Source: Thiolapillus brandeum (GTDB taxonomy: Bacteria > Pseudomonadota > Gammaproteobacteria > Chromatiales > Chromatiaceae). From it: a stretch of 64,000 nucleotides of DNA. Shown here piece after piece: positions 1,593-54,583 of this stretch. The stretch is from assembly GCF_000828615.1 (NCBI RefSeq), contig NZ_AP012273.1, positions 682,001 through 746,000 on the forward strand. The letters are read 5' to 3'. The notes under the pieces were generated by a model. The model was not told where the DNA came from. It did no database searches and was given only the letters and a program-made list of their open reading frames with translations. Made by a program: the position numbers and the translations under genes. Numbering within the stretch: position 1 is the stretch's first letter; each line of letters begins with the position of its first letter.

Positions 1593-3080
1593 TCATTCCC
1601 GGGCTTCTGTGGCAGGGGATGTGTCCCCGGCTTCATCTCCCGGTGCTTCTACGGCTTCTTCTGTTTGGCCGGAAGGATTGGTGAAGCGGTCGTTGAGTTG
1701 TTGTACGAACTTGTCAGCCCGGTTGACGAGTGCAGAGAGCTTGCGCCGGGTGCCGCGTCCCCAGCCAGCCGGAGTCTTTGCCATCAGGCTGCGCCAGGGA
1801 CGGGTGCTCCTGTGGAAGGCAGCTGCCAGATTGATTTTCACGGGCAGCCCCTGTTCCTGCTTGACCAGCCATCCCGTCAGGCTGCGGGCCGCCAGCCGGC
1901 GCAGTGCCAGATGCAGGGCAAAACCGCCGCCAAGAACCACGGCCAGTACAATGCCGCTGTGCAGGGTGCTTTCGTGCGTCCATTGCCACCAGGTGCCCAG
2001 TTGGCCGTTGCTGGCGCCCAGACCCAGCACCAGAGCTGCAATCAGGCCAAAGGCAATGCCGTCCAGCCAGAGTACGCGCTTTTTCCAGCGGGCCAGGGCC
2101 TCAGTGAGCGTGGGAATGACCTGCTCCCCGATTTCCCGGCTGGTTTTTTCCAGGGCAGCGACGATGCGGTAGGCGCGCTCGACTTCCACCTGGGCCATGC
2201 GGTCGTATATTTCCGCCAGATCCTTGTCCCGCTTGCTTTCATAGCGCTGACGCAGCTTGTCATCCTCGATCTGGTTGGATGCCGTGTGGCTGTAGATGGT
2301 ATAGAAACGACCGGCGGTCAGGCCATGTTCCCCCAGGGCGCGTTGCCAGGCGGCGATTACTTCCTCAGGGTTGTCTTCCTTGGCAGTCGTGTCTATCTGA
2401 TTGAGAATAAACATGAACTTTCCGGAATCCGGACGGTGAATGGTTTTGGCAACCAAATGTTCCAGGGTATCGCGCATGGCGCCGGGTTCCGGGTGTCGGG
2501 CATCGAAGAACACCAGCACCAGGTCTGAGAGATCCACCATGTGGTCGGTGATGCGCAGGGTGGAAGTACGTTGGGCGTCCGCGTCGAAGCCCGGGGAATC
2601 GATGAGAATCTTGCCCTTGAGGCGTTCGCTGTTGCAGCTCTTGAGCTGCAGATAAGCGTCGATACGGTCGCCTTCGCCTTCTGCTACCAGTTCGATTTCA
2701 CGGCTGATCTTGTAAAAAGGGAAGCGTGGATCGGAATCCAGGGCTACACCGGGCAGGGTGTGGGGAGTGGGATCCTCGCTGTAGCAGAGTACGGTGAACT
2801 TGTCGTCCACGGCCTGGTTGCCGCTGCGTTGCAACTGGGTTTCCAGGTAATTGTTGATGAAGGTCGATTTGCCTGCGGAGAATGTGCCCAGAATGGAGAT
2901 CAGGGGCCACCAGGGAATCTGCGTGGCAAAGGACTCGCTACGGCTCAGAAGCCCCATGCGATAGGCCACCTTGTCCAGCTCGCGGAAACTCTGTACGGCG
3001 TTGAGCAGCACGGGGTTTTCCTTTTCCAGGTGGGATTCCAGTTGTTTCAGTCGGTTTTCGATAATATCTTGGTCGGCCAT
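1593..3080 (-). CDS. Dynamin-like membrane GTPase
   Basis: Large GTPase of the dynamin superfamily, 495 aa from the ATG at 3080. The P-loop GTFSAGKS is at residues 65-72, the G3 motif DSPG at 162-165 and the G4-like NQID at 228-231. Two hydrophobic segments near residues 337-357 and 376-395 form a membrane hairpin, followed by a basic C-terminal region. Bacterial members of this type are associated with inner-membrane remodelling or repair; the role here is inferred. An in-frame upstream extension to 3329 exists but is low-complexity and Ser/Thr/Arg-rich, and the MADQ start gives a normal N-terminus. First gene of the minus-strand run leading to nadA. Confidence 0.82.
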   Translation of the reverse strand: MADQDIIENRLKQLESHLEKENPVLLNAVQSFRELDKVAYRMGLLSRSESFATQIPWWPLISILGTFSAGKSTFINNYLETQLQRSGNQAVDDKFTVLCYSEDPTPHTLPGVALDSDPRFPFYKISREIELVAEGEGDRIDAYLQLKSCNSERLKGKILIDSPGFDADAQRTSTLRITDHMVDLSDLVLVFFDARHPEPGAMRDTLEHLVAKTIHRPDSGKFMFILNQIDTTAKEDNPEEVIAAWQRALGEHGLTAGRFYTIYSHTASNQIEDDKLRQRYESKRDKDLAEIYDRMAQVEVERAYRIVAALEKTSREIGEQVIPTLTEALARWKKRVLWLDGIAFGLIAALVLGLGASNGQLGTWWQWTHESTLHSGIVLAVVLGGGFALHLALRRLAARSLTGWLVKQEQGLPVKINLAAAFHRSTRPWRSLMAKTPAGWGRGTRRKLSALVNRADKFVQQLNDRFTNPSGQTEEAVEAPGDEAGDTSPATEARE

Positions 3081-3388: not shown

Positions 3389-3784
3389 ATGGCTGACCTG
3401 TTTTCTGCGGATTGGATGGCCGCTTTTGCGGACCATTGGAATGCTGAAGATGATTTGACTGGCCCCCTGGGGGATATCGGCTTCAACAGTGTGATCGGCT
3501 ATGGCTTTCCCGATGATGATCAGCCTGCGGGGGTATTGGTTGTCGAGAATGGCAAGGCAGTCTCCGGTGGCGCTTACAATGGTGAAGATCTGAACTGGGA
3601 TATCCGCGCATCGGCTGACCAGTGGAACAAGTGGATCGCCAAACCTCCCGGCATGATGGGGCTGGGCGCGGCATTCACCACCGGCAAAATGAAATTCAAG
3701 GTGGGTGACTATGGCTCCATGCTCAAGGATCCGCGCATGGCCAAGCCCTTCATCAAGAGCTTTTCCGTTATGGGAAAGGTGTAG
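3389..3784 (+). CDS. SCP2-like small protein (sterol-carrier/lipid-binding fold)
   Basis: 131-aa cytoplasmic protein without signal peptide. The C-terminal half, GLGAAFTTGKMKFKVGDYGS followed by a FIKSFSVMG ending, matches the typical SCP2 pattern of a small hydrophobic-ligand-binding domain (a TGKxKxxGD core near residues 97-107, then a helix ending in FxxxFxxMG). SCP2 proteins bind lipids or other hydrophobic molecules; the ligand here is unknown. Strong GGAGGTG ribosome binding site 5 nt before the ATG. It opens the plus-strand cluster that encodes an RND adaptor and permease, which suggests a hydrophobic substrate. It lies just after a Fur-box-like sequence. Confidence 0.7.
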   Translation: MADLFSADWMAAFADHWNAEDDLTGPLGDIGFNSVIGYGFPDDDQPAGVLVVENGKAVSGGAYNGEDLNWDIRASADQWNKWIAKPPGMMGLGAAFTTGKMKFKVGDYGSMLKDPRMAKPFIKSFSVMGKV

Positions 3785-3896: not shown

Positions 3897-5048
3897 ATGA
3901 GCAATATCAGGATAGTGCGGGCGGCGGTTGTGGCTTTCGTCATTTCGCTCGGAAACCCAGGCTCGGCACTGGCAGAGGATAAGAATTCTTTTGGCGAAAT
4001 CTTCGTGGTTCAGGCTTCGGACCGCCAGCCTACCGTCTCCATTGGCGGCACCGTGGTGCCCTACAAGCAGGTGACCCTGGCGGCGCAGATCCCCGGGCGG
4101 GTCAAATATATTGCCGGCATCGAGGGTGATGCCTTCAAGGAAGGCACGCTACTGGTGGCCATCGATGATTCCGAGCTTCTGGCCAAGCGTGCTGCTGCCT
4201 ACGCCCAGTTGTCCTCCGCAGAAGCCGAACTGCGCAATGCCGGGGTGCAGTATTCCCGGGAACTGTGGTCGCCCAAGTCCAAGGCAGCTCCTGGTGGTAT
4301 GGGAATCCCGAATCTGTTTGATCAGATGTTTACCGCACCCGCAGAGGACTTCATGGGGGAGCGTGACCGGGGCGCGGAGCGCAGTGCCGATTTGTACGCC
4401 TCCACAACCCGTATCGAGCAGGCGCGTTCGGCCATCATGCGCGCCCGTTCAGAAATTCAGGCCATCGAAGCCAAACTGCGCGATGCCAAGAGCCTGGCGC
4501 CTTTTGATGGTGTGATCATGAACAAGATGGTGGAAGTTGGCGATACGGTGCAACCTGGCGTTCCCATGCTGCGCTTTGCCGATATCACCTGGTTGCAGGT
4601 GGAGCTGAATATCCCCGCCCGTCTGGTCACCGGACTTCAGGAAATGATGGTGCTGAAGAAAGCAGCAACCTTCGATGACTATGCGGAACCCGTGGACGTG
4701 CGTGTCGCCCAGATCTATCCCATGGCGGATGCCCAGCGTCACACCATCAAGGTCAAGTTTGATATACCCCAGGGCATATCCCAGCCTGGTATGTATGCCA
4801 AGATCAATATCCCGGATACCAGTCATGCTGCAGAAACCGGTAGTCTGCCGGTCATTCCGGCCACGGCTATTCGATATCGTGGCAGTTTGCCCGTGGTCTA
4901 TGTACAAAATGAAGAAGGCAAGGCGGAATTGCGCCTGATTCGTGAAGGCCGCCGCATGGGCAATGGGATGGTCACTGTGCTCTCTGGTCTGGCGCCGGGG
5001 GACAAGGTCTGGGTCAACCCGCGGCCAGGGATGATTTCCGGTTCCTGA
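3897..5048 (+). CDS. RND efflux periplasmic adaptor (membrane fusion protein)
   Basis: 383-aa periplasmic adaptor of the HlyD/AcrA family. A signal peptide covers about residues 1-26 (cleavage after SALA). The first half of the lipoyl-like barrel-sandwich domain is at about 50-95, an interrupting helical hairpin at about 95-205, and the second barrel half at the LAPFDGVIMNKMVEVGD segment, followed by a beta-barrel and a membrane-proximal domain. It would link the RND permease encoded next to an outer-membrane channel; no channel gene lies nearby. The ATG at 3897 is chosen because the signal peptide begins there; the open frame extends upstream without meaning. The hairpin contains a Gly/Pro-rich insertion (near PGGMGIPNLFDQMF). 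Confidence 0.85.
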   Translation: MSNIRIVRAAVVAFVISLGNPGSALAEDKNSFGEIFVVQASDRQPTVSIGGTVVPYKQVTLAAQIPGRVKYIAGIEGDAFKEGTLLVAIDDSELLAKRAAAYAQLSSAEAELRNAGVQYSRELWSPKSKAAPGGMGIPNLFDQMFTAPAEDFMGERDRGAERSADLYASTTRIEQARSAIMRARSEIQAIEAKLRDAKSLAPFDGVIMNKMVEVGDTVQPGVPMLRFADITWLQVELNIPARLVTGLQEMMVLKKAATFDDYAEPVDVRVAQIYPMADAQRHTIKVKFDIPQGISQPGMYAKINIPDTSHAAETGSLPVIPATAIRYRGSLPVVYVQNEEGKAELRLIREGRRMGNGMVTVLSGLAPGDKVWVNPRPGMISGS

Positions 5049-5221: not shown

Positions 5222-8200
5222 ATGAGTGATCTCGATACCAAGCCCCACAATCCCCCCCTTTCCGGTGTCGTGGAAGAGTCAGAGAATCTCGGGATAGCAG
5301 GGCGTACAGCGCGCTTCTTCATCAATTCCCCCCTGTCTCCATTGTTGTACCTCACCATGTTCCTTCTGGGGATGGCGGGCCTGATTATGACGCCGCGCCA
5401 GGAAGATCCACAGATCTCCGTGCCGCTCATCGATCTTTTCGTTCAATATCCGGGTGCTCCCGTGGAAGAAGTGGCCTCCCTGGCCATTCAGCCCCTGGAG
5501 CGCATGATGTGGGAGATACCGGGCGTCAAACATGTCTATTCCGCGTCTCAGCGCGGTGGTGGCATGGTGACCGTGCAGTTCGAGGTGGGTGAGGAAATGG
5601 AGCCTTCCCTGGTGAAGGTCAACGAACAGTTGGCCTCCAACATGGACAAGATTCCCAACGGTGTTTCGCCGCCTCTTGTACAGGCCAAGGGTATCGATGA
5701 TGTGCCTGTGGTCACCCTGACTCTTTGGTCTGACAAGGACTACAACGGTGATGGTATTCCTGACGTGGATGACAGCCAGTTGCGCCGCTTGGCGTTGTCT
5801 GTGCTTCAGTCCATCAAGGAGATTCCCGATACCGGCGAGGGCTTTGTGGTGGGAGGGCGCGCCGAGCAGGTCACTATCGAAGTGTTGCCCGAACGCCTGG
5901 CGGGTTATGGCATCAGCCTGGGACAGGTGGCGCAGGCCATTCAGCAGGCCAACGTGGAGCAGCAGGCGGGCAACGTGGAAGCGGCTGGCACTCACTTCAC
6001 CGTAGTAACCGGCAGGTTCCTGAGAACCGCTGATGATATCAATCAGCTCAAGGTAGGCAGTCATAACGGGGTTCCCGTATACGTGCGGGATGTGGCTCTG
6101 GTTCATCAGGGCCCTGAAGATGCCAAGCGCATGGTGGCCTATTACACGGGAGCTGCATCCGAGAATCCGGATCTTGCTGTCAGCGTACCGGCGGTGACTG
6201 TCGCTATCGCCAAGAAGAAAGGCACCAATGGTGTTGATGTTGCCAACAAGGTACTGGAACGAGTGGAGGAACTCAAGGGGCGCCTGATCCCCAGCAATGT
6301 GCAGGTGAGTGTTACCCGCAACTATGGCAAGACTGCAAATGACAAGGTCACCGCCCTGATCTTCAAGCTGTTTGTGGCCACTTTCTTCGTATTCATTCTG
6401 GTGTGGTGGGCCTTCCGTGCCCTCAAGCCGGCCATTGTGGTGCTGCTGGTTATCCCTGTCGTTCTGTTGTTCACGGTTTTTGGCGCCTGGATGTTGGGCT
6501 TTACTATCGACCGGGTGTCCCTGTTCGCCCTGATTTTTTCCATAGGAATCCTGGTGGATGATGCCATCGTGGTAGTGGAAAACATCTACCGGCGCTGGCT
6601 GGAAGAAGGCAAGACAGATGCGGAGACTGCCGTGGATGCGGTGCGGGAAGTGGGCAACCCCACGATTCTCGCCACCTTGACCGTTATCGGCGCCCTCCTG
6701 CCCATGGGCTTTGTGTCCGGCATGATGGGGCCCTATATGATGCCCATTCCGGCCCTGGGTTCAGTGGCCATGGTCATATCCCTGTTTGCGGCTTTCGTGT
6801 TTACCCCCTGGCTGGCTATCCATCCTGTATTCCGGCCTTCAATGGAATATCTGGCGATTGCGGAAAAACGCGAGCACAGGGAAGCGGAGAAACTGGAGAA
6901 GGTATTCCGCCGCATCCTCATGCCCATGATCGAAAATCCACGCAAGGCGCGGCGTTTTCGCCTGGCCATGTGGGGGGTTTTCCTGCTCATGTGTTCCATG
7001 TTCTATTTCAAACTGGTGGTAGTGAAGATGCTGCCCCTGGACAACAAGCCGGAATATTCCGTGGTGCTGGATATGCCCGAAGGCACAGCCCTGGCAGAGA
7101 CAGCGAACCGCGCCAACCAGATTGCCAACCTGGTGCGCAAGCTGCCGGAAGTGACTGCGGTACAGGTCTATGTGGGCACCGCCAAGCCCTTTGATTTCAA
7201 TGGCATGGTGCGGCATTACTACCTGCGCAACAAACCCTGGCAGGCAGAAATACAAGTACAACTGCTGGACAAGCATGAGCGCAAGCGCAGCAGCCACGAG
7301 ATTGCCGTAGAGACCCGGGCACGGGTCAAGGAGCTGTTCAAGGATGTGAATGCCAATTTTGCGGTGGTGGAAATGCCACCGGGGCCGCCGGTGCTTCAGT
7401 CCGTGGTGGCTACGGTTTATGGGCCTGATGCGCCGACCCGGCACAAGGTCGCGGCGGATCTGACCGAGATATTCTCTGAAGCACCGAACCTGACCGATGT
7501 GGACAACTACATGGTCAAACCCCACGACTACTGGCGCTTTGTGGTGGATCGGGACAAGGCCGATATGCGCGGCATTTCCGTGGATTCCATTAACAAGAAT
7601 CTGGCCATGGCCCTGGGGGGCATGGTTTTGGGCGACGTCAAGCAACGGGCCGGCCATGAACCCGTGAATATTGTTATTCAGGTTCCTCTTGCAGAACGTT
7701 CTCAGATTACGCGATTGGGAGATCTGCTCATCCAGTCTGTGGATGGTGTGGGCGTGCCTTTGCGTGAGTTGGGCGAATTCAAGCGCGTCCCTGTGGAGCC
7801 CACAGTGTTCAACAAGGATCTGCGTGCCGTGGAGTACGTGGTGGCAGATGTAGGTGGACGCCTGGCGGCCCCCGTGTACGGCATGATGCAAGTGGAAGAT
7901 CTGCTGGGCCATTGGAAGGATGACAAACCCTATGTCACGCCGGACAATATCAAGCTGGAGGACAATACCTTCTGGACAGGGCCGCCTCCTACGGACGGGC
8001 ATTCCGGTTTCGAGTGGACGGGTGAATGGACGGTTACCTATGAAACCTTCCGGGATATGGGCGCCGCTTTTGCTGCGGCCCTGGTACTGATCTACATCCT
8101 GGTGGTGTGGGAGTTTGGCAACTTCCGCATTCCTGCACTCATCATGTCTCCCATTCCCTTGACTTTGCTGGGCATTCTTCCCATGCATGCCATTTTCTTT

Positions 8201-9451
8201 GCGCTGGGGTTGGGCGGGGAATTTACGGCCACTTCCATGATTGGCTGGATCGCCCTGGCGGGCATTATCGTGCGTAACTCCATCCTGTTGGTGGATTTCT
8301 CCATTCATGAAGTACAGAAGGGAGTTAGCGTACCGGAGGCGGTGATACGAGCCTGTAAAACCCGTACACGCCCTATTTTGATCACGGCATTTGCCCTGGT
8401 TTTCGCTTCTTCGGTGATCTTTTTTGACCCTATCTTCCAGGGCATGGCGATTTCTCTGGCTTCCGGTGTGCTGGTATCCACGATTCTTACCCTGGTAGTC
8501 ATACCCCTGGGCATGGTGGCTGCTTCGGATTCCCTGTGTGAGGCAGCCGGACGCCGTTGTCCCAAGGCGCCCAAGGGCAGGAAAGGACCCCAGGGGGGCG
8601 GTTCCGGAGGTGGTGGCAGAACGTTTCTCAAGCGTGGCTGGAATGCAGTGGCAACCGTTCTGATTGGCGCTATTGGCTTGTTTGCATCAGTGATCCGCAT
8701 GTTTCGTGGCAAGAACAAGGCTCAGCCCCATAGACATGTAGCAACGGAATCTGCCAGTACCCCACAAAAGACCGCTGCTCAGAAGTCCGGCGCACAGAAA
8801 ACGCCTGAAGAGCGAGCTGTTGGGCAAAACCGTGCCGATACGGTTTCTGATGAGGAAGAAGGAAAGTCGCTGGATGTGGAGCGTGTCGAGAAGGACCTGG
8901 AGATAATCGCCCAGCCTTTGCGTAAATCTGCCGCATCGGCAGTGATTCTGGAAGAGTCGAAGAAATCCGTACCCCCACGCAAGAAAACAGTGAAAAAGCA
9001 GGCGGCCAAAAAAGTTGCCGCCAAGGCGAAGCCAGCCCTTGAAGTGGACAGCAAAGCGACAGACAAAGGGGCTACAGACAAAAAATCAAATAAGGTGGTA
9101 ACGAAGAAGCCTGGGGCTAAGAAAACAGTGGTGAGAAAAGCGGCTGCCAAAAAGCCGGCCACCAGGCAATCGGCACCAAAGAAAGCCACTGCCAAGAAGA
9201 CTGCCGCCAAGAAGGCTGTTGCCAAGAAGGCTGTTGCCAAGAAGGACGCCACCAAGAAGGCTGTTGCCAGGAAGACACCGGTAGTGCAAAAGGGCGCACC
9301 CGGCAAATCGCCGGTAAAAACCGCCACAGCTGCGCCACGCAAAAAAGTCGCCAAGAAAAAAGTGATGCCATTGGCTGTGGCCAGGAAAAATGGCCGGCGG
9401 GGTATCCGCTTGAAAAGTCTGGACAGTAGTGATGATGGTCTGTCATCCTGA
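5222..9451 (+). CDS. RND permease (AcrB superfamily) with histone-H1-like C-terminal tail
   Basis: 1409-aa inner-membrane proton-driven exporter. The first 1100 or so residues form a standard RND permease: N-terminal TM, two large periplasmic loops and the proton-relay TM4 motif ILVDDAIVVVENIYRR near residue 445. Beyond the last TM (about 1098) it continues for some 310 unusual residues: a Gly-rich linker (1125-1133), an extra hydrophobic segment (about 1143-1159), an acidic stretch with SDEEEGKSL (about 1209-1217), then a long Lys/Ala/Pro tail (about 1250-1385) built of AKKAVAKKA-type repeats as in histone H1. Normal RND permeases end near 1050 residues. The tail is in frame with no stop and the upstream domain is intact, so it looks like a true fusion. 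Partner of the adaptor encoded before it. Confidence 0.88.
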   Translation: MSDLDTKPHNPPLSGVVEESENLGIAGRTARFFINSPLSPLLYLTMFLLGMAGLIMTPRQEDPQISVPLIDLFVQYPGAPVEEVASLAIQPLERMMWEIPGVKHVYSASQRGGGMVTVQFEVGEEMEPSLVKVNEQLASNMDKIPNGVSPPLVQAKGIDDVPVVTLTLWSDKDYNGDGIPDVDDSQLRRLALSVLQSIKEIPDTGEGFVVGGRAEQVTIEVLPERLAGYGISLGQVAQAIQQANVEQQAGNVEAAGTHFTVVTGRFLRTADDINQLKVGSHNGVPVYVRDVALVHQGPEDAKRMVAYYTGAASENPDLAVSVPAVTVAIAKKKGTNGVDVANKVLERVEELKGRLIPSNVQVSVTRNYGKTANDKVTALIFKLFVATFFVFILVWWAFRALKPAIVVLLVIPVVLLFTVFGAWMLGFTIDRVSLFALIFSIGILVDDAIVVVENIYRRWLEEGKTDAETAVDAVREVGNPTILATLTVIGALLPMGFVSGMMGPYMMPIPALGSVAMVISLFAAFVFTPWLAIHPVFRPSMEYLAIAEKREHREAEKLEKVFRRILMPMIENPRKARRFRLAMWGVFLLMCSMFYFKLVVVKMLPLDNKPEYSVVLDMPEGTALAETANRANQIANLVRKLPEVTAVQVYVGTAKPFDFNGMVRHYYLRNKPWQAEIQVQLLDKHERKRSSHEIAVETRARVKELFKDVNANFAVVEMPPGPPVLQSVVATVYGPDAPTRHKVAADLTEIFSEAPNLTDVDNYMVKPHDYWRFVVDRDKADMRGISVDSINKNLAMALGGMVLGDVKQRAGHEPVNIVIQVPLAERSQITRLGDLLIQSVDGVGVPLRELGEFKRVPVEPTVFNKDLRAVEYVVADVGGRLAAPVYGMMQVEDLLGHWKDDKPYVTPDNIKLEDNTFWTGPPPTDGHSGFEWTGEWTVTYETFRDMGAAFAAALVLIYILVVWEFGNFRIPALIMSPIPLTLLGILPMHAIFFALGLGGEFTATSMIGWIALAGIIVRNSILLVDFSIHEVQKGVSVPEAVIRACKTRTRPILITAFALVFASSVIFFDPIFQGMAISLASGVLVSTILTLVVIPLGMVAASDSLCEAAGRRCPKAPKGRKGPQGGGSGGGGRTFLKRGWNAVATVLIGAIGLFASVIRMFRGKNKAQPHRHVATESASTPQKTAAQKSGAQKTPEERAVGQNRADTVSDEEEGKSLDVERVEKDLEIIAQPLRKSAASAVILEESKKSVPPRKKTVKKQAAKKVAAKAKPALEVDSKATDKGATDKKSNKVVTKKPGAKKTVVRKAAAKKPATRQSAPKKATAKKTAAKKAVAKKAVAKKDATKKAVARKTPVVQKGAPGKSPVKTATAAPRKKVAKKKVMPLAVARKNGRRGIRLKSLDSSDDGLSS

Positions 9452-9576: not shown

Positions 9577-10215
9577 ATGATTACCCTCATTGGAAGCCTC
9601 AAGGGTGGATCCGGAAAAAGCACCATTACTTTCAACCTGGCCGTATGGTTGTCTCTGGCTGAACAGAATGTGCTTGCCATAGATGCTGATCCCCAGGCTA
9701 CTTTGACGGATGTTGTGGATGTGCGTACGGAGGAGGGTTATGAACCCCCGGTTATTCTGGGGAACAAAAAATTGCTCACGAATCGCAAGGAACTCGACCA
9801 GTATGATGAAGTGCTGGTGGATGTGGGCACTGCAGATCTGCACAGTTTCAAGCAGGCCATTGCCGTGGCTGATCGTATCGTGGTTCCGGTACCCCCCAGC
9901 CAGGCGGATATCTGGTCTACCCAGCGTTTTCTGCGCCTCATAGATTCCGTGGTTTCAGACAGCCGCAGGCCGGAAGTCATGGGCTTCATCAATCGGGCCG
10001 ATACCCATCGCGCCATTCGTGAAAGTGATGAAGCCGCCGCAGCCCTGGTATCTTTGCCGGGTATCAAGTTTATCAAGGCGCGTCTTGCCCAGCGCACGGC
10101 TTTTCGGCGTTCCTTTAGTGAGGGTCTGGGAGTGTTTGAGATGGATCCCCGTAGCAAAGGGGCTCTGGAGTGGAATGCTTTGGCAGCCGTGCTTTACGCC
10201 CATGTGGTCGGTTGA
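9577..10215 (+). CDS. ParA/MinD-type ATPase
   Basis: 212-aa cytoplasmic P-loop ATPase. The deviant Walker A box KGGSGKST is at residues 9-16 and the IDADPQ motif at 35-40, both hallmarks of ParA/Soj proteins; a short switch segment EVLVDVGT follows at about residue 80. It is close to the small ParA types that position cargo rather than segregate a replicon: there is no N-terminal HTH and no parB gene beside it. It sits 125 nt after the RND permease and before a membrane-anchored coiled-coil protein, so a role in positioning that membrane complex is possible but inferred. Confidence 0.85.
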   Translation: MITLIGSLKGGSGKSTITFNLAVWLSLAEQNVLAIDADPQATLTDVVDVRTEEGYEPPVILGNKKLLTNRKELDQYDEVLVDVGTADLHSFKQAIAVADRIVVPVPPSQADIWSTQRFLRLIDSVVSDSRRPEVMGFINRADTHRAIRESDEAAAALVSLPGIKFIKARLAQRTAFRRSFSEGLGVFEMDPRSKGALEWNALAAVLYAHVVG

Positions 10216-10347: not shown

Positions 10348-10854
10348 GTGGTGACGGTATTGAATTCCCAGGAAGAAGACAAGCAGCAGGTGAGCGACCA
10401 GGAAGGCATTACCCGCCTTTCGGAAGTCTTCGAAACCAGTGCCCGGCGCTGGGAACTGATCATTTACCCTTCCATGTTTGCTTTCGTGGTGCTGGCGGCC
10501 TATGGTTTCTTTCTAATCTATCGCCTGGCGGGCGATATGCATTATATGGTCATCAGCGTGGATACGCACATGTCCGTGCTCTCCAGCAACATGCAAAGCA
10601 TGTCGGAGAACATGGGGCAGATGACCACCAATATCCGCACCATGACGGTGAGCCTTGATTCCATGGAACACAAGATGGGAACACTGCAGCCGATACTGGC
10701 CAGCATGGAATCCATGGATGATTCCATGAAATCTCTGAATGCCTCTACCCGGGCCATGACTTTCGCCACCCAGGGGATGCAGCAGGATATGTCGCGTCTG
10801 AATACCAATGTTGGTCGCCCCATGTCCTTTATGAACAGTTTCATGCCCTGGTAG
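10348..10854 (+). CDS. Methionine-rich membrane-anchored coiled-coil protein
   Basis: 168 aa, unknown function. A soluble N-terminal 35 residues precede one TM helix (about 37-58); the remaining 108 residues carry 19 methionines in a regular SMxxNMxxM-type spacing, predicting a long amphipathic helix or coiled coil, probably on the periplasmic side. The start is GTG (10348, or GTG 10351); the first ATG lies inside the TM, so a GTG start is needed. It follows the ParA-type gene by 132 nt and ends 2 nt before the nucleotidase start. Methionine-rich periplasmic helices sometimes bind copper or act as oxidant sinks, but no function is established here. Confidence 0.7.
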   Translation: MVTVLNSQEEDKQQVSDQEGITRLSEVFETSARRWELIIYPSMFAFVVLAAYGFFLIYRLAGDMHYMVISVDTHMSVLSSNMQSMSENMGQMTTNIRTMTVSLDSMEHKMGTLQPILASMESMDDSMKSLNASTRAMTFATQGMQQDMSRLNTNVGRPMSFMNSFMPW

Positions 10855-11791: not shown

Positions 11792-13894
11792 TTACAGCTC
11801 CGCGTCGTAGATGATGGTGTCCACAGGCTTCTGGATAAAATTGCCCTGGATGAAATCAACACCAACGTTCCATAGCAGGGTCAGCTGAGCAGCCTCCTCG
11901 ATATGGGTGACGATGGTTTTGACCTTCTCTTTGTGCAACTGCTCGTTATAATCCTTGAGCAGCTCCTGCTGTTCCTTGTCCTGGGACAGCTTGCCGGAAA
12001 TTTCCGGGGTGAAACATACCATGTCGGAATTCAGATGCCGCACCACGTTGACGGCTTCCTGCTCGAAAGGGAAATGGGTGAGAGTGATGCGGCAATTGAT
12101 CTTGCGCAGGCCTTCCGCCAGTTGCTCCATTTTTTCCAGGTGAGCGATAACATCATTGTGAGCCACTGCAAAAGCCAGCCATGCACCCTTGGCTTTGAAC
12201 TCCCGCAGGCAATCACAAATCCATAGAAGCAGCGAGTCGTCTTCTATGCCAGCGGCTGACAAGGTGATCAGGAAATTGAGCTTGTGGCCATCGGCCCGGT
12301 GGCTGGCCACTTCTCGAATGGCATTGCGGATCACCCAACGGTCAATTTCGGCCATGCGTTCGGAACGAATCGCATCCTCCATGAACTCCTCCGGGGATAT
12401 CTGCTGGCCTTCTTCATTCAGCATGCGCACATAGATGGCATAGTCTTCCCGGCTGTTGCCATGCAGGCTGACCACAGGCTGATATACGAGATGGAACTGA
12501 TCATTGGACAAGGCCTGATCGATCAGTTGCACCACGCTTTCATTTCCGTTGTTCTGTTCTGCAGCCTGTTGCCCGCCTTTTTCAAACGACACAATGGCAG
12601 TATTGTTGGCCAGTCCCTGTTTCCGGGCTTTGACCGCGTGAGAGATAAGGTCGGTAGCACTTTTGGCTGGTGGCGCATCCGAATGGGAGATGCCGAACAC
12701 GAACTGTGGAGAAATGGATGTCCCGTCTTCCTCAAAGCTGTGATCATTGAGGGCTTTGGCCAAGCGGTTGGCCAGTGATTCGGCATCCGTGCCGGGTGTA
12801 CACAAGATGGCAAATTCATGCTCGCCAAACCGGGAAACCAGGTCTGTGTCATAGGTGGTTTCATTGAGAATGTGGGTCACCTCCTTGAGGACGGTTTCTC
12901 CAGCATCCAGATTGAAGTCAGTCTTGATATCGGGGAAGTTTACGATATTGAGCAGTATCATGCTGAGCCGCTGATTGGTATCGCGGGCTTCTGCAAACTG
13001 TAGCTCAAGGTTTTCATTGAAATATTTGCGATTGTGCAGGCCTGTATCAGTATCGTAGTTGGCCAGCTCGGCCAGGCGTTGCTCGATATCCATGTCGGAA
13101 GCCTGGCTACGGATGATCACCTGGGTGCAGTCCTCGCCATCGATGGTTGAAGGGGCAAAATCCATCGTGACAGACAGGTCTTTGCCCTCATTGGTCACGC
13201 AGGTGATGTCGATCTGCTCTGCGGTATGTTCCTCGTCCAGTTTGTGCAGTACGGGCTTGAACTTGAGCCGGTCGTCACTGGCAATGAGATCCATAAATGG
13301 AAGACCTTCCAGCTCATCAGGGTTGTTGAAACCAAACAGGGAAACGTAGGCCGGATTGGCATAGACATGCATGCCCTGGTGTATATAGGCGATGGCGTCA
13401 CGTGCGGTTTCCGTGAGAGTTTCATAACGCTGTTTGGTCTCTTTCAGCTCCTGGGTGACGGCCAGCAGCTTTTTCTTGGTGATCATGTTCTGCTGTTCGC
13501 GATTCACCACGTAGATGAGATGTGCATGATCATTGCGCTCAATAATGTCCTGAGCCCGGGTTTCAGCCGCAAAAAACAGTTCTTCGTCAGGATCGTCGGA
13601 AAGCAGGATGAAAGCCGCCAGGGGGGACACTTCCCGTATCTGGCGTATGGCGGTGGTAAAATCGATTTCCTCCGCATCCGTGTTCACAAGAACCACATCT
13701 GCGTCCAGGGTTTGCACCAGAGTATCGAGTTCATCGGGTGTGTAAGCAGTATTCAGGTGTACCGCCATGCCGGAATTGCGCAGGGTTTGGGAGTATATGT
13801 TGGCATCATCGATGGAACACCCAAGCACCAGGAGTTCCACAATGTCACTCAGGGGAGTAACGATCTGAATAATTCTTTCTGCATTGGTGCTCAT
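11792..13894 (-). CDS. FimX-like protein: receiver-like, PAS, degenerate GGDEF and EAL domains
   Basis: 700-aa cytoplasmic signalling protein. Order: receiver-like domain (about 18-130), PAS (about 155-270), GGDEF-like (about 285-450) and EAL-like (about 455-695). The GGDEF active-site loop reads RFGEHEF instead of R-x-GGDEF, and the EAL signature region reads YAIYVRML instead of EALLR, so neither cyclase nor phosphodiesterase activity is expected. This combination is that of FimX, a c-di-GMP receptor for type IV pilus function. An AGGA ribosome site precedes the ATG at 13894. It lies 27 nt after a PilZ-like gene on the same strand, so the pair is probably one c-di-GMP effector operon. No pilus genes are in the window. 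Confidence 0.82.
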   Translation of the reverse strand: MSTNAERIIQIVTPLSDIVELLVLGCSIDDANIYSQTLRNSGMAVHLNTAYTPDELDTLVQTLDADVVLVNTDAEEIDFTTAIRQIREVSPLAAFILLSDDPDEELFFAAETRAQDIIERNDHAHLIYVVNREQQNMITKKKLLAVTQELKETKQRYETLTETARDAIAYIHQGMHVYANPAYVSLFGFNNPDELEGLPFMDLIASDDRLKFKPVLHKLDEEHTAEQIDITCVTNEGKDLSVTMDFAPSTIDGEDCTQVIIRSQASDMDIEQRLAELANYDTDTGLHNRKYFNENLELQFAEARDTNQRLSMILLNIVNFPDIKTDFNLDAGETVLKEVTHILNETTYDTDLVSRFGEHEFAILCTPGTDAESLANRLAKALNDHSFEEDGTSISPQFVFGISHSDAPPAKSATDLISHAVKARKQGLANNTAIVSFEKGGQQAAEQNNGNESVVQLIDQALSNDQFHLVYQPVVSLHGNSREDYAIYVRMLNEEGQQISPEEFMEDAIRSERMAEIDRWVIRNAIREVASHRADGHKLNFLITLSAAGIEDDSLLLWICDCLREFKAKGAWLAFAVAHNDVIAHLEKMEQLAEGLRKINCRITLTHFPFEQEAVNVVRHLNSDMVCFTPEISGKLSQDKEQQELLKDYNEQLHKEKVKTIVTHIEEAAQLTLLWNVGVDFIQGNFIQKPVDTIIYDAEL

Positions 13895-13921
13895 AAACTT
13901 GATCCTGAGTTATTCTGATTT

Positions 13922-15787
13922 TCAAAGATCATTCCATAGATCCTGGAAGTCGTCTGTAGGGTCACCGGACTTTTTCCGGGATTCTTCCTGTTCCACATAA
14001 GTGAAATGATAGTGGATGAAGTTGTTGTTTGACTCCACCCATTTGGTCAGTTTGATCTGATGTTCGCCAAATTCTGTGACCATGGTCATGATTGTGTTCA
14101 ATTCAAAGGCGCGGGTGTTGGTGAGTATGCCCTGCCTCTCGCTGTCTATGCCGCTCCCGGACAACAGCAGGCAGCGATACTGGTTCTGTCGATTGGAGGA
14201 TGCCTTCGTGCCTGGGGTGAGGGTAATAGGCGAACAATTGGAAGCCATGACCTGTATGCCCAGATACAGCTGATCATCCTCAATATCCTTGAGCCAGCGC
14301 GTGACTGCAACACTGAATTCCTCAGGGTTATTGGGAGAGCGGATGCCCAGTATGTCACCTACTCTGACTTTCATGGGATAGGAATCCTTCCAGCCCAGGC
14401 AGTATCCTTCTACGCTTTCGTTGTAAGTGAGTACGGAAAAGGCGGCATTTGGATCACGCTTCATGGCGTCGAACAGGTTGGCCGGTTCGTGTTCCATGGG
14501 CGTACCCAGTAGAGCGCTTGCCAGATTCGAGGAGGATTCGGCAAATATGGAATCTCCGCCAAGGCTGTTGGTGGGAGAGGCGATGGCCAGGGTGCTGAAT
14601 ACACTATCATTCCAGGTCAGATGGCTGGAAGGGTTGGCGTTGCCTGATTGTGCCCCCTTGTCCTGCTGTTGTTCCTGTCCGCTTTCAATATTTTGCTCCA
14701 GCAGATGCAGAAGATTGGTCAGGCCGACGATAGCGTACATCTCATGGTGCAGGTTGTTGCGTGCAAATTTGCGTTCCAAAGATTTGTTCCAGCCTCTTAT
14801 CAACGATGTCAACAATGAGCGGGACAAGTGATGCGGGTTCTTCTCCATGTGTGCAGGAGATTCCCATTCTGCATCATCATATTCCTCCCGGGCGCGGGAG
14901 AGCACGCCGTTCAGATCAAATGCACGGTAACGGCTGTCGTTGCGTTGTGCCGGGCTGATGGTTTTCTGTGGTGGCTCATCGGACCACAGGTTGAGATAGA
15001 AAATCCCGGCGCTGTGGTTGTCCATGTCGCTGATCAGGCCGATCTCCGTATGCTTGTCCCATTCCTGCAGTTTGTCATGCAGTAGACGCAGCTGGGTTTG
15101 GGTCAGACGATAAGGGCTGGTGGTGGCGATCAGAACCATATCCTTATAGACATCTTCGATGCTCTGTGCGTTCTTGCGGCGCCATAGAAACTTGCTGGTT
15201 TCCTTTACGCCAATATGATGCACATGGTTCTGCGAGGCCCATGCATACAGGTAATGGGCTTCGCGCCACAGGCCCTTTTGATAGTCCCGGTAGATCAGCA
15301 GGTTGTGGAACATGCGCTGCTTCATGTACTGAAGTGCCCGTTGCGCGGCAACAATGACCAGTTTCTGGTTGAAGTTCTTTTCATTACCCATGACCTGTTC
15401 GAGAAACAGAATCTTGTAGGAAATGGCAATTTCGTTGCACAGCTCCGTAGCCAGTCTGGCCGCCTTTTTGGACTTGGGGGACAGGGGAAAACCGACGTTC
15501 AGATAGTGCTTGGTGATATTGGTATTGATATAACGGACGGGTTCCCGGAATAGCTCGATGATCTCTGCACGAACCAGGGTGGGGATCCTGATGCGATTGA
15601 AGGTGGCAAGGGTTTTGTATACCTGGCGTGCTGTTTCACCAATATTGGCTACGGGCAGCTGCTCGGCCCAACGTTTGACCTCCCGTGGATTCAACAAAAA
15701 GCTGTCCTCGGGCGCCTCTGTCTGTTTGGGGATGGACAGTTCTACCCGTGGCGGCTTGCTGTTTTCATCGTGTCTACTGTCGGCCAT
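13922..15787 (-). CDS. Large protein with C-terminal PilZ-like domain, partner of the FimX-like protein
   Basis: 621 aa from the ATG at 15787, which has an AAGGA upstream; an in-frame ATG at 15826 lacks a ribosome site. The first 400 residues are helical and unassigned. The region around residues 470-550 (VRVGDILGIR, then AVTRWLKDIEDDQLYLGIQV) has the layout of a PilZ beta-barrel, in which a strand on W-x-x-V/R-x-W-L precedes a G-I/V-x-hydrophobic strand; the arginine pair of canonical c-di-GMP binders is not evident. The gene precedes the degenerate GGDEF-EAL gene by 27 nt. A role in c-di-GMP-dependent surface behaviour is inferred from that pairing. Confidence 0.6.
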   Translation of the reverse strand: MADSRHDENSKPPRVELSIPKQTEAPEDSFLLNPREVKRWAEQLPVANIGETARQVYKTLATFNRIRIPTLVRAEIIELFREPVRYINTNITKHYLNVGFPLSPKSKKAARLATELCNEIAISYKILFLEQVMGNEKNFNQKLVIVAAQRALQYMKQRMFHNLLIYRDYQKGLWREAHYLYAWASQNHVHHIGVKETSKFLWRRKNAQSIEDVYKDMVLIATTSPYRLTQTQLRLLHDKLQEWDKHTEIGLISDMDNHSAGIFYLNLWSDEPPQKTISPAQRNDSRYRAFDLNGVLSRAREEYDDAEWESPAHMEKNPHHLSRSLLTSLIRGWNKSLERKFARNNLHHEMYAIVGLTNLLHLLEQNIESGQEQQQDKGAQSGNANPSSHLTWNDSVFSTLAIASPTNSLGGDSIFAESSSNLASALLGTPMEHEPANLFDAMKRDPNAAFSVLTYNESVEGYCLGWKDSYPMKVRVGDILGIRSPNNPEEFSVAVTRWLKDIEDDQLYLGIQVMASNCSPITLTPGTKASSNRQNQYRCLLLSGSGIDSERQGILTNTRAFELNTIMTMVTEFGEHQIKLTKWVESNNNFIHYHFTYVEQEESRKKSGDPTDDFQDLWNDL

Positions 15788-16233
15788 TGTCTTTGTTTTC
15801 CTTGTCCCTGAATCGATCTCTGGCACTTGCTGACCAGCGGATTGCTCAGCTGGGTTGCTGCAGTTGAGGTGTCATAAATCCAGGCTCCGGCCTGACTGTT
15901 ACAGTCGGAACCAATGATTTGTAAGTCCCCGGGAGATCCTTCGACCCCTGCTCGTACTGCACAGGACGACGCAAGAAAACCTCTGCTGCTAAATATCGCC
16001 TAAAAAGGCTTTTATTCCAAGCACTAAAGATAACAAATTATATATGAAATCAATAGTTGGGCACAGGGGATAGTACCAGGACAACGGAGAGTTTCCTGTC
16101 CACAGGGAGATTGCTTTGTTGTTTGTGTCGTATTAGACATGATGTTTTGACCTGCCCAACCTCAACGAACGTGGATTATGCTGGGGTTGGGAAATACACT
16201 CCCGACACAGAGCCACATTGAGGAGGACAGGTC
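15788..16233. other. Intergenic region upstream of the IS110 transposase
   Basis: No gene can be supported. The left end of the IS element must lie here. A hairpin with arms at 16155-16164 (CCCAACCTCA) and 16182-16191 (TGGGGTTGGG) lies 42 nt before the transposase start, with a 17-nt loop. The middle part, about 15990-16060, is AT-rich. Confidence 0.5.
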
Positions 16234-54226: not shown

Positions 54227-54583
54227 ATGAAAAAGATGATCAAAGTTGCTGCAGTTGCGGCTCTGGTTGCCGCTTCTGCGTCTGCATCCGCCTGGTGGGG
54301 CGGTCCTTGGGGTCACCGTGGCTGGGATAACAATGCCTGGGATGATGCCTGGGATGGCTGGGGCGATGGCTCCGGTGATTTCAGCTTCGGTTTCAGTGGC
54401 AATGCCCGGGGTTCCGGCTATGGCCGTGGTTATGGCTACAATCGTTACTATGACTATTATGGTCCTTACGGTTACCCTCCTTACGGCTATGCGCCCTATG
54501 GCTATGCACCCTACGCGCCTCCTGCGCCTCCTGCGCCTCCGGCACCCGCACAGCCCCAGGCTCCGGCACAGCCTGCCAAGTAA
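54227..54583 (+). CDS. Sulfur globule protein (Sgp type)
   Basis: 118 aa. Signal peptide [20 protein letters not shown], then a mature part starting WWGGPWG, with Gly/Trp/Tyr/Asp-rich repeats and a proline-rich end ([20 protein letters not shown], then [12 protein letters not shown]). This is the composition and opening of the sulfur globule envelope proteins CV1/CV2 of Allochromatium: small, exported and coating periplasmic sulfur globules. Strong AGGAGA ribosome site and an intrinsic terminator fit high expression. It places the organism among the sulfur-storing oxidisers. Confidence 0.85.

Follow-up and report, generated by a model that had tools for sequence, protein, structure and literature searches.

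The window analysed here is a 64,000-nucleotide stretch of the Thiolapillus brandeum genome (contig NZ_AP012273.1, positions 682,001 to 746,000; the genome amounts to 3.15 Mb in 3 contigs). It encodes a permease of the resistance-nodulation-division (RND) type with a long C-terminal tail. Near its end this tail bears a conserved tip, RRGIRLK, and the tip and the ParA-family ATPase encoded downstream tend to be retained or lost jointly. The anatomy of the tail, the conservation of its tip and its co-inheritance with ParA are shown here, together with a link, in many relatives, between the pump and genes for sulfur globule proteins. We judge it reasonably probable that the tail is a cytoplasmic flexible arm whose tip docks ParA, the pump being a cargo adaptor that ParA positions. 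Genomes and loci are given our own handles (G and L, respectively) where they need to be told apart. The nearest named relatives, among the best 80 of 286 loci, are sulfur oxidisers labelled Sedimenticola and Thiolapillus.

The pump is a single open frame of 1409 residues (5222-9451, + strand), consisting of the permease (residues 1-1099) and a tail of 310 residues (1100-1409). The permease matches the AcrB/AcrD/AcrF family in Pfam (PF00873) at 470.6 bits (cut-off 28). An AlphaFold2 (AF2) model with a mean predicted local distance difference test score (pLDDT) of 79.1 resembles AcrD, CmeB and AcrB (TM-score 0.87 by target for AcrD). No named multidrug or metal efflux subfamily was reached among the NCBIfam RND subfamilies listed, the best scoring 420 of 1250 bits. 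In the tail, a Gly-rich stretch (8594-8617, +; pLDDT below 50 at residues 1116-1136) comes after the last permease helix, followed by an extra hydrophobic and amphipathic helix in the AF2 model (8621-8707, +; residues 1134-1162, pLDDT 71-73 over residues 1141-1160 and lower at its start). Next comes a disordered linker, Lys/Ala/Pro-rich in the Thiolapillus genus and drifting in composition among relatives (8708-9394, +), with an acidic patch inside it (8846-8881, +), and finally the tip, recognised by comparison of tails (9395-9415, +). Sequence and model thus bear out the preliminary description, which had read these elements, tip apart, as an in-frame extension of the permease; the start it gave, 8514, is out of frame, as codons begin at 8513 or 8516. 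The conserved C-terminal motif was absent from that description.

Tails were compared across 110 loci, comprising the best 30 loci from 55 genomes and the best 80 of 286 loci. Removal of 8 that ran off their contig, 2 with internal stops and identical proteins left 85 distinct tails, the window's own included, of 111 to 379 residues (median 265). The net charge of their linkers spans -23 to +40, a span unchanged when only the 74 tails whose tip is recognisable are taken, with a Lys content of 2 to 30 percent; the linker in the window carries +39. The strict motif RRGI[RQ]LK lies no more than 31 residues from the end in 68 of the 85 tails (mean of 0 in shuffled tails) and a looser form in 74 (0.01 in shuffled tails). 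Clear variants, such as HRGIRLK, TRGIRLK and KRGIQLK, are found among the 11 remaining. When 140 tails were considered, a set that includes near-identical rows, 117 could be aligned on the motif, with position frequencies of R91, R96, G95, I94, R81, L93 and K92 percent. Acidic residues often follow the tip, and the tip occurs in many families of the class. Since the length and net charge of the linker vary while the tip stays, the histone H1-like Lys/Ala repeats are, in these sequences, a feature of the lineage and not a conserved property of the tail. The tails of FtsZ and SSB are built alike, with a drifting disordered linker and a conserved C-terminal peptide, in different proteins and for different partners.

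RRGIRLK has a single match in its own genome, which excludes a motif common to other proteins there. DNA encoding it was matched once each in 10 of 15 genomes (own included) and not in the other 5, with differing codons. One such match, G037:C50:23709 (L165), lies in a genome without a pump-clade match, and the stretch fetched around it has no pump core. The preliminary description had feared a sequencing error that removed a stop codon. A frameshift or lost stop is excluded as the origin of the tail, because 85 distinct full-length tails exist and the genus spells the tip with differing synonymous codons; the fusion is present in relatives. Among the loci read, none encoded the tail as a protein of its own, although no dedicated search for such a gene was made. 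Length does vary within the genus from one species to another (14 proteins, 1302-1410 residues), whereas the variation foreseen earlier had concerned strains.

The ATPase (9577-10215, +; 212 residues) has the deviant Walker A motif KGGSGKST and matches CbiA at 58.6 bits (cut-off 25.4). Its nearest solved structure by sequence is ParF of a partition system (E 3.4e-15), and K9 and K14 are present in at least 97 percent of 73 aligned orthologues. We surveyed 229 genomes of the class, defining the pump clade by at least 53 percent identity and ParA by E 1e-30 or better. The pump clade was found in 46 genomes, ParA in 40 and both in 36 (Fisher 2e-28, kinship ignored), so that ParA accompanies 36/46 pump genomes vs 4/183 without a pump. 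Where a tail of at least 100 residues was seen, ParA was present in 35 of 39 pump genomes, as against 1 of 7 with shorter tails. The four genomes with ParA and no pump match are G075, G149 (41 percent identity, different neighbours), G218 and G219, the last with a tail end carrying the tip beside ParA, near a contig end. Among loci from the best 80 of 286 with an untruncated pump and at least 6 kb after it, ParA lies downstream on the same strand in 46/53. The seven others comprise two with ParA elsewhere in the genome (L097, L103), three without a match (L052, L092, L104), one with a weak match (L085) and one whose genome could not be searched (L101). A ParA match at 1e-15 was also present in 15 of 24 further genomes behind distant loci, and tail-less forms of the pump exist in more distant genomes.

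Tip and ParA were then tabulated for 61 genomes with one pump each, made up of 43 genomes of the class survey and 18 listed loci (L001 being the window's own). The table omits G195, which has no ParA and whose tail is cut by the contig end; G215, whose pump is split in two, with an RRGIRLN tip and ParA present; L098 and L109, with truncated tails; L052 and L100 as duplicates; and further listed loci that have both features, among them L042, L043 and L047. The two states agree in 55/61 genomes: 41 have both, 14 neither, 3 the tip only and 3 ParA only (Fisher 1.7e-8). Tips were called by eye, the borderline cases being L104 (TRGIRLDD) and L094 (RRGMELK), taken as lost, and G240 (RRGIRAD), G247 (HRGIRLN) and G183 (ARGIRLK), taken as kept. 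Scoring by best match to RRGIRLK, free of hand calls, associates the tip with ParA at p = 1.6e-6 over all genomes and 9e-5 over the 54 with long tails; with three fixed regular expressions the ranges are 1.7e-5 to 1.6e-7 and 6e-4 to 6e-5, respectively. On a tree of 1073 columns the tip changes 11 times and ParA 10 times. The 10 supported independent contrasts fall on average 6.1 in the same direction, 0.1 in the opposite direction and 3.8 with no difference; in 148 of 200 pairings, 6 or 7 contrasts point the same way and none the opposite way (sign test, median p = 0.03, range 0.016-0.22).

Individual losses follow the same direction. G022 has a pump with a 217-residue tail and mp168 (10348-10854, + in the window) nearby, no ParA match, and a tip decayed to RKSVRIK; the tail of L052 is identical. 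mp168 is a coiled-coil membrane protein with one transmembrane helix, DUF948-like in a profile search (under the DUF948 cut-off). The clusters of G113 and G237 still contain the adaptor, the pump, secreted proteins, a PF17228 match, mp168, a TPR protein (checked with Pfam in G113) and a dynamin-like gene recognised by eye. No ParA match was found in either genome, and the pumps stop 29 and 34 residues past the core. In G113 a DUF4412-like gene (below cut-off) and the TPR gene are 4 bases apart, and in L242 ParA stands between them. Across the survey mp168 is present in 44/46 pump genomes and in 10/10 pump genomes lacking ParA (weak in G142 and G258, possibly a paralogue). Therefore mp168 goes with the pump, and ParA with the tip of the tail. 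The persistence of mp168 where tip and ParA are gone excludes the tip as an mp168 docking site. A variant tip, RRGIRADKK or RRGIRADRK, occurs in G117 and G240 (L132, L159), whose ParA (38 percent identity) diverges unusually far; co-evolution of tip and ParA would predict such a pairing. G117 has a second pump, with the tip RRGIRLK.

The genetic data would also fit an ATPase that is a subunit for assembly or activity of the pump and that, on binding the tip, switches transport on or off or supplies it with energy, much as BcsQ serves cellulose export and ArsA serves ArsB. The ATPase does exceed the Pfam cut-offs of ArsA_ATPase (28.6/24.3), CBP_BcsQ (21.5/21.3) and MipZ (36.8/20.7), all with scores below that of CbiA. 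However, its closest solved relatives are the partition proteins ParF and ParA, and the pump, proton-driven by homology, is retained without ParA in G113, G237 and others. We regard such a subunit as rather unlikely.

Docking on ParA calls for a tip on the cytoplasmic side, and the extra helix bears on this. On a biological hydrophobicity scale it equals several of the 12 transmembrane helices, yet it is more amphipathic, with a mean hydrophobic moment over the 85 tails of 0.19 vs about 0.08 for those 12 helices. A score below zero, that of a segment able to cross the membrane, was obtained in 39/85 tails, and AF2 draws the segment as a single helix of 29 residues. Were it a thirteenth crossing, the tail would be periplasmic and would touch sulfur globule proteins or the adaptor, its correlation with ParA being indirect. 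Sulfur globules are indeed extracytoplasmic in Allochromatium vinosum (PMC10386293). Against this topology, the mean net charge flanking the segment is +1.5 before and +3.1 after, with the more positive side on the far side, and a charged residue interrupts mid-segment in 83/124 tails. Moreover, no hydrophobic stretch is present in the G150, G183 and G156 tails, yet these still end in the tip and occur with ParA; on this ground a thirteenth crossing is rejected as the general topology. We consider a periplasmic tail improbable.

Both termini of AcrB-type permeases are cytoplasmic. With this and the three tails lacking the segment in mind, the tip is taken to be cytoplasmic in G150, G183 and G156 and, by the common tip, probably elsewhere too. 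The extra helix then probably lies on the inner membrane face rather than crossing it. The suggestion in the preliminary description that the tail recruits ParA thus gains from the co-inheritance, from G113 and G237 lacking both partners and from the likely cytoplasmic tip; recruitment itself is what we infer from them.

The same description had put forward a histone-like tail tethering the pump to the chromosome, in which case ParA would be a bystander or helper. The linker in the window is strongly basic, and its Lys/Ala/Pro repeats resemble those of HC2 and BpH1; AlgP is another H1-like protein with such repeats. The resemblance is weak: the tail alone scores 32.4 bits with the HC2 profile (cut-off 40) and 38.1 with the Burkholderia H1-like profile (cut-off 80), and the composition is not conserved in orthologues. 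The tails of L093 and G095b (L141), without tip or hydrophobic segment, end instead in a helix-hairpin-helix-like domain, at 26.8 bits vs a cut-off of 27 in L093 and by eye in G095b. However, the basic composition drifts while the tip stays, and a tether does not predict the joint loss of tip and ParA. Given the span of linker charge and Lys content, DNA tethering is not supported as a general function, and we find it very unlikely. Very basic linkers of the Thiolapillus type may bind DNA. That the tail is neutral drift of low-complexity sequence, or an artefact of assembly, can be dismissed as extremely improbable: the variable linker and the existence of tail-less pumps might speak for it, but a tip at the end of 68/85 tails across many families contradicts it.

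Beyond ParA, the pump is linked to sulfur globule proteins (PF17228, cut-off 26.7 bits). Secreted proteins encoded between the pump and ParA/mp168 match this family in L110 (30.6 bits), L242 (56.2) and L240 (27.7), and one in L082 falls just below the cut-off (25.7). NCBIfam gave no sulfur globule match for four secreted proteins. At E 0.001, PF17228 was found in 35 of the 229 class genomes (34 over the cut-off) and in 0/14 controls. The pump clade is present in 32 of these 35, and the remaining three (G075, G218, G219) have ParA; 14 pump genomes are without a PF17228 match. Among 77 genomes with dsrA, 29 have pump and PF17228, 11 the pump only, 2 PF17228 only and 35 neither (p = 9e-10, kinship ignored). 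A match lies within 5 kb of the pump or ParA in 15/35 genomes, against 0.67 expected with even placement in 3 Mb genomes, although four of the 15 (G065, G100, G113, G165) are under the cut-off. The link goes with the pump and not with the tail, because the tail-less G113 and G237 show it too. In the window genome the nearest PF17228 gene (54230-54583, +; 80.6 bits) lies outside the pump cluster, 45 kb away, close to a molybdopterin oxidoreductase gene (PF00384, 55890-58841) and a regulator-like frame (by eye).

The other genes of the cluster are as follows. The periplasmic adaptor, or membrane fusion protein, of the pump (3897-5048, +; HlyD_D23, 47.2 bits, cut-off 30) is also adjacent in related loci. 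It is preceded by an SCP2-like gene (3389-3784; named by eye, no Pfam match) and a dynamin-family GTPase (1593-3080, -; PF00350, 48.8 bits, cut-off 27). A dynamin-type gene also occurs in clusters of relatives, as a PF00350 match beside mp168 in L242 and as look-alikes by eye in L240 and L241. Outside the Thiolapillus genus, variable secreted proteins stand between pump and ParA, with mp168 further on. In Thiodiazotropha-type and related clusters (L044-L087) these are Pro/Tyr-rich with YRFRP or FRP repeats, and the one examined had no Pfam match. Paralogues of mp168 with a similar one-helix coiled-coil layout and C-terminal end are found elsewhere in the genome, at G000:C1:41300-42700 (L237) and 528200-530000 (L238). 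After the cluster, in the genus, two further proteins are encoded (11792-15826, -): a PAS-GGDEF-EAL protein, which many other loci also have at 27-41 percent identity, and an unassigned one of 634 residues.

How the ParA-docking arm might work can be sketched from these parts. AcrB is a trimer, and a pump of the same fold would carry three copies of the arm. The linker would be a mere spacer of drifting sequence, and RRGIRLK would dock on the cognate small ParA, most likely as the ATP-bound dimer on the nucleoid. Docking may stimulate release of ParA, an effect that ParB and McdB achieve with their N-terminal peptides, and the pump complex, as ParA cargo, would be spread or placed along the nucleoid. 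Since genes for sulfur globule proteins lie in the pump clusters of many relatives, globules probably form at a site that the pump marks or serves. Positioning in the service of the sulfur globule machinery would be a bolder step than a pump trimer as ParA cargo. In its fullest form, globule proteins would gather on the periplasmic side, and a nucleoid ParA would position and segregate the periplasmic sulfur globule through an RND transmembrane adaptor, which is possible, if on balance doubtful. Four steps here are conjectural: that tip and ParA bind directly, that the ATPase is stimulated, that the pump is positioned and that globules are the final cargo.

Several points weigh against the ParA-docking arm. 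Co-inheritance fits direct binding and a common third partner alike. Six of the 61 genomes are discordant, with the tip and no ParA in G121, L080 and L092 and ParA without the tip in G186, G089 and L108. Some of these are possibly caused by assembly: G121 is 88 percent complete with pump and mp168 near contig ends, G186 has second-copy fragments near a contig end, and the tail of G089 stops early relative to its near twin G225. In G075, a genome 96 percent complete, ParA is present and a search at E 1e-40 gave no pump. The tips were scored by eye after ParA status was known, the automated score serving as a check, and L085, with a weak ParA-like match (32 percent, 8.5e-26), was scored as lacking ParA. 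An earlier tree of 209 columns gave 6 supported contrasts (about 3.4 in the same direction, 0 opposite) and a median p of 0.25. The direction of the co-inheritance is consistent, but few independent events stand behind it. Finally, the tip is C-terminal, whereas the ParA partners cited below bear their peptide at the N-terminus.

ParA-type ATPases place plasmids, chromosomes, carboxysomes, chemoreceptor arrays and flagella (PMC10241942), and carbonate inclusions might be placed by ParA homologues, according to a remark in PMC11773610. Closest in design is carboxysome positioning by McdA/McdB, where a short N-terminal McdB peptide with key lysines contacts the ParA-family ATPase (PMC12204374). 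Here too a ParA-family ATPase would act with a cargo-bound partner bearing a short peptide; unlike McdB, the partner would be an integral membrane pump with the peptide at its C-terminus, not a soluble adaptor, and the cargo would be across the membrane. In ParB, a disordered peptide has hydrophobic residues around one basic residue (PMC12462528), a pattern that I-R-L of the tip resembles. RRGIRLK on a drifting linker fits the role of a ParA partner, because such partners use short peptides of basic and hydrophobic residues; a short basic peptide on a disordered, probably cytoplasmic segment is what the tail presents. ParF, of ParF/ParG from plasmid TP228, is the nearest solved relative of the ATPase, but unlike ParF/ParG and ParA/ParB the partner here would be a transporter, and no centromere-binding protein was seen. 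The pump shares fold and Pfam family with the multidrug pumps AcrB, AcrD and CmeB, from which it differs in its tail, in reaching no NCBIfam RND subfamily and in the sulfur globule gene linkage of its relatives. SgpA-D of A. vinosum correspond to the PF17228 genes that some relatives have in their pump cluster, and the available part of PMC10386293 gives them no ParA or positioning role. Among the open-access papers listed, no description was found of ParA paired with an RND transporter or with sulfur globules, or of sulfur globules paired with an RND transporter, nor any account of globule spacing or sharing at division, which is weak evidence of absence.

If the ParA-docking arm is real, a proton-driven pump would be a new sort of ParA cargo, and the system would illustrate how a motor in the cytoplasm can act on a target beyond the inner membrane. 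Named genes and seven residues are now available as candidates for testing in a tractable non-pathogen. Taken together, these data suggest that in sulfur-storing bacteria ParA serves to position the pump inside the cell and, perhaps, the sulfur granules associated with it.

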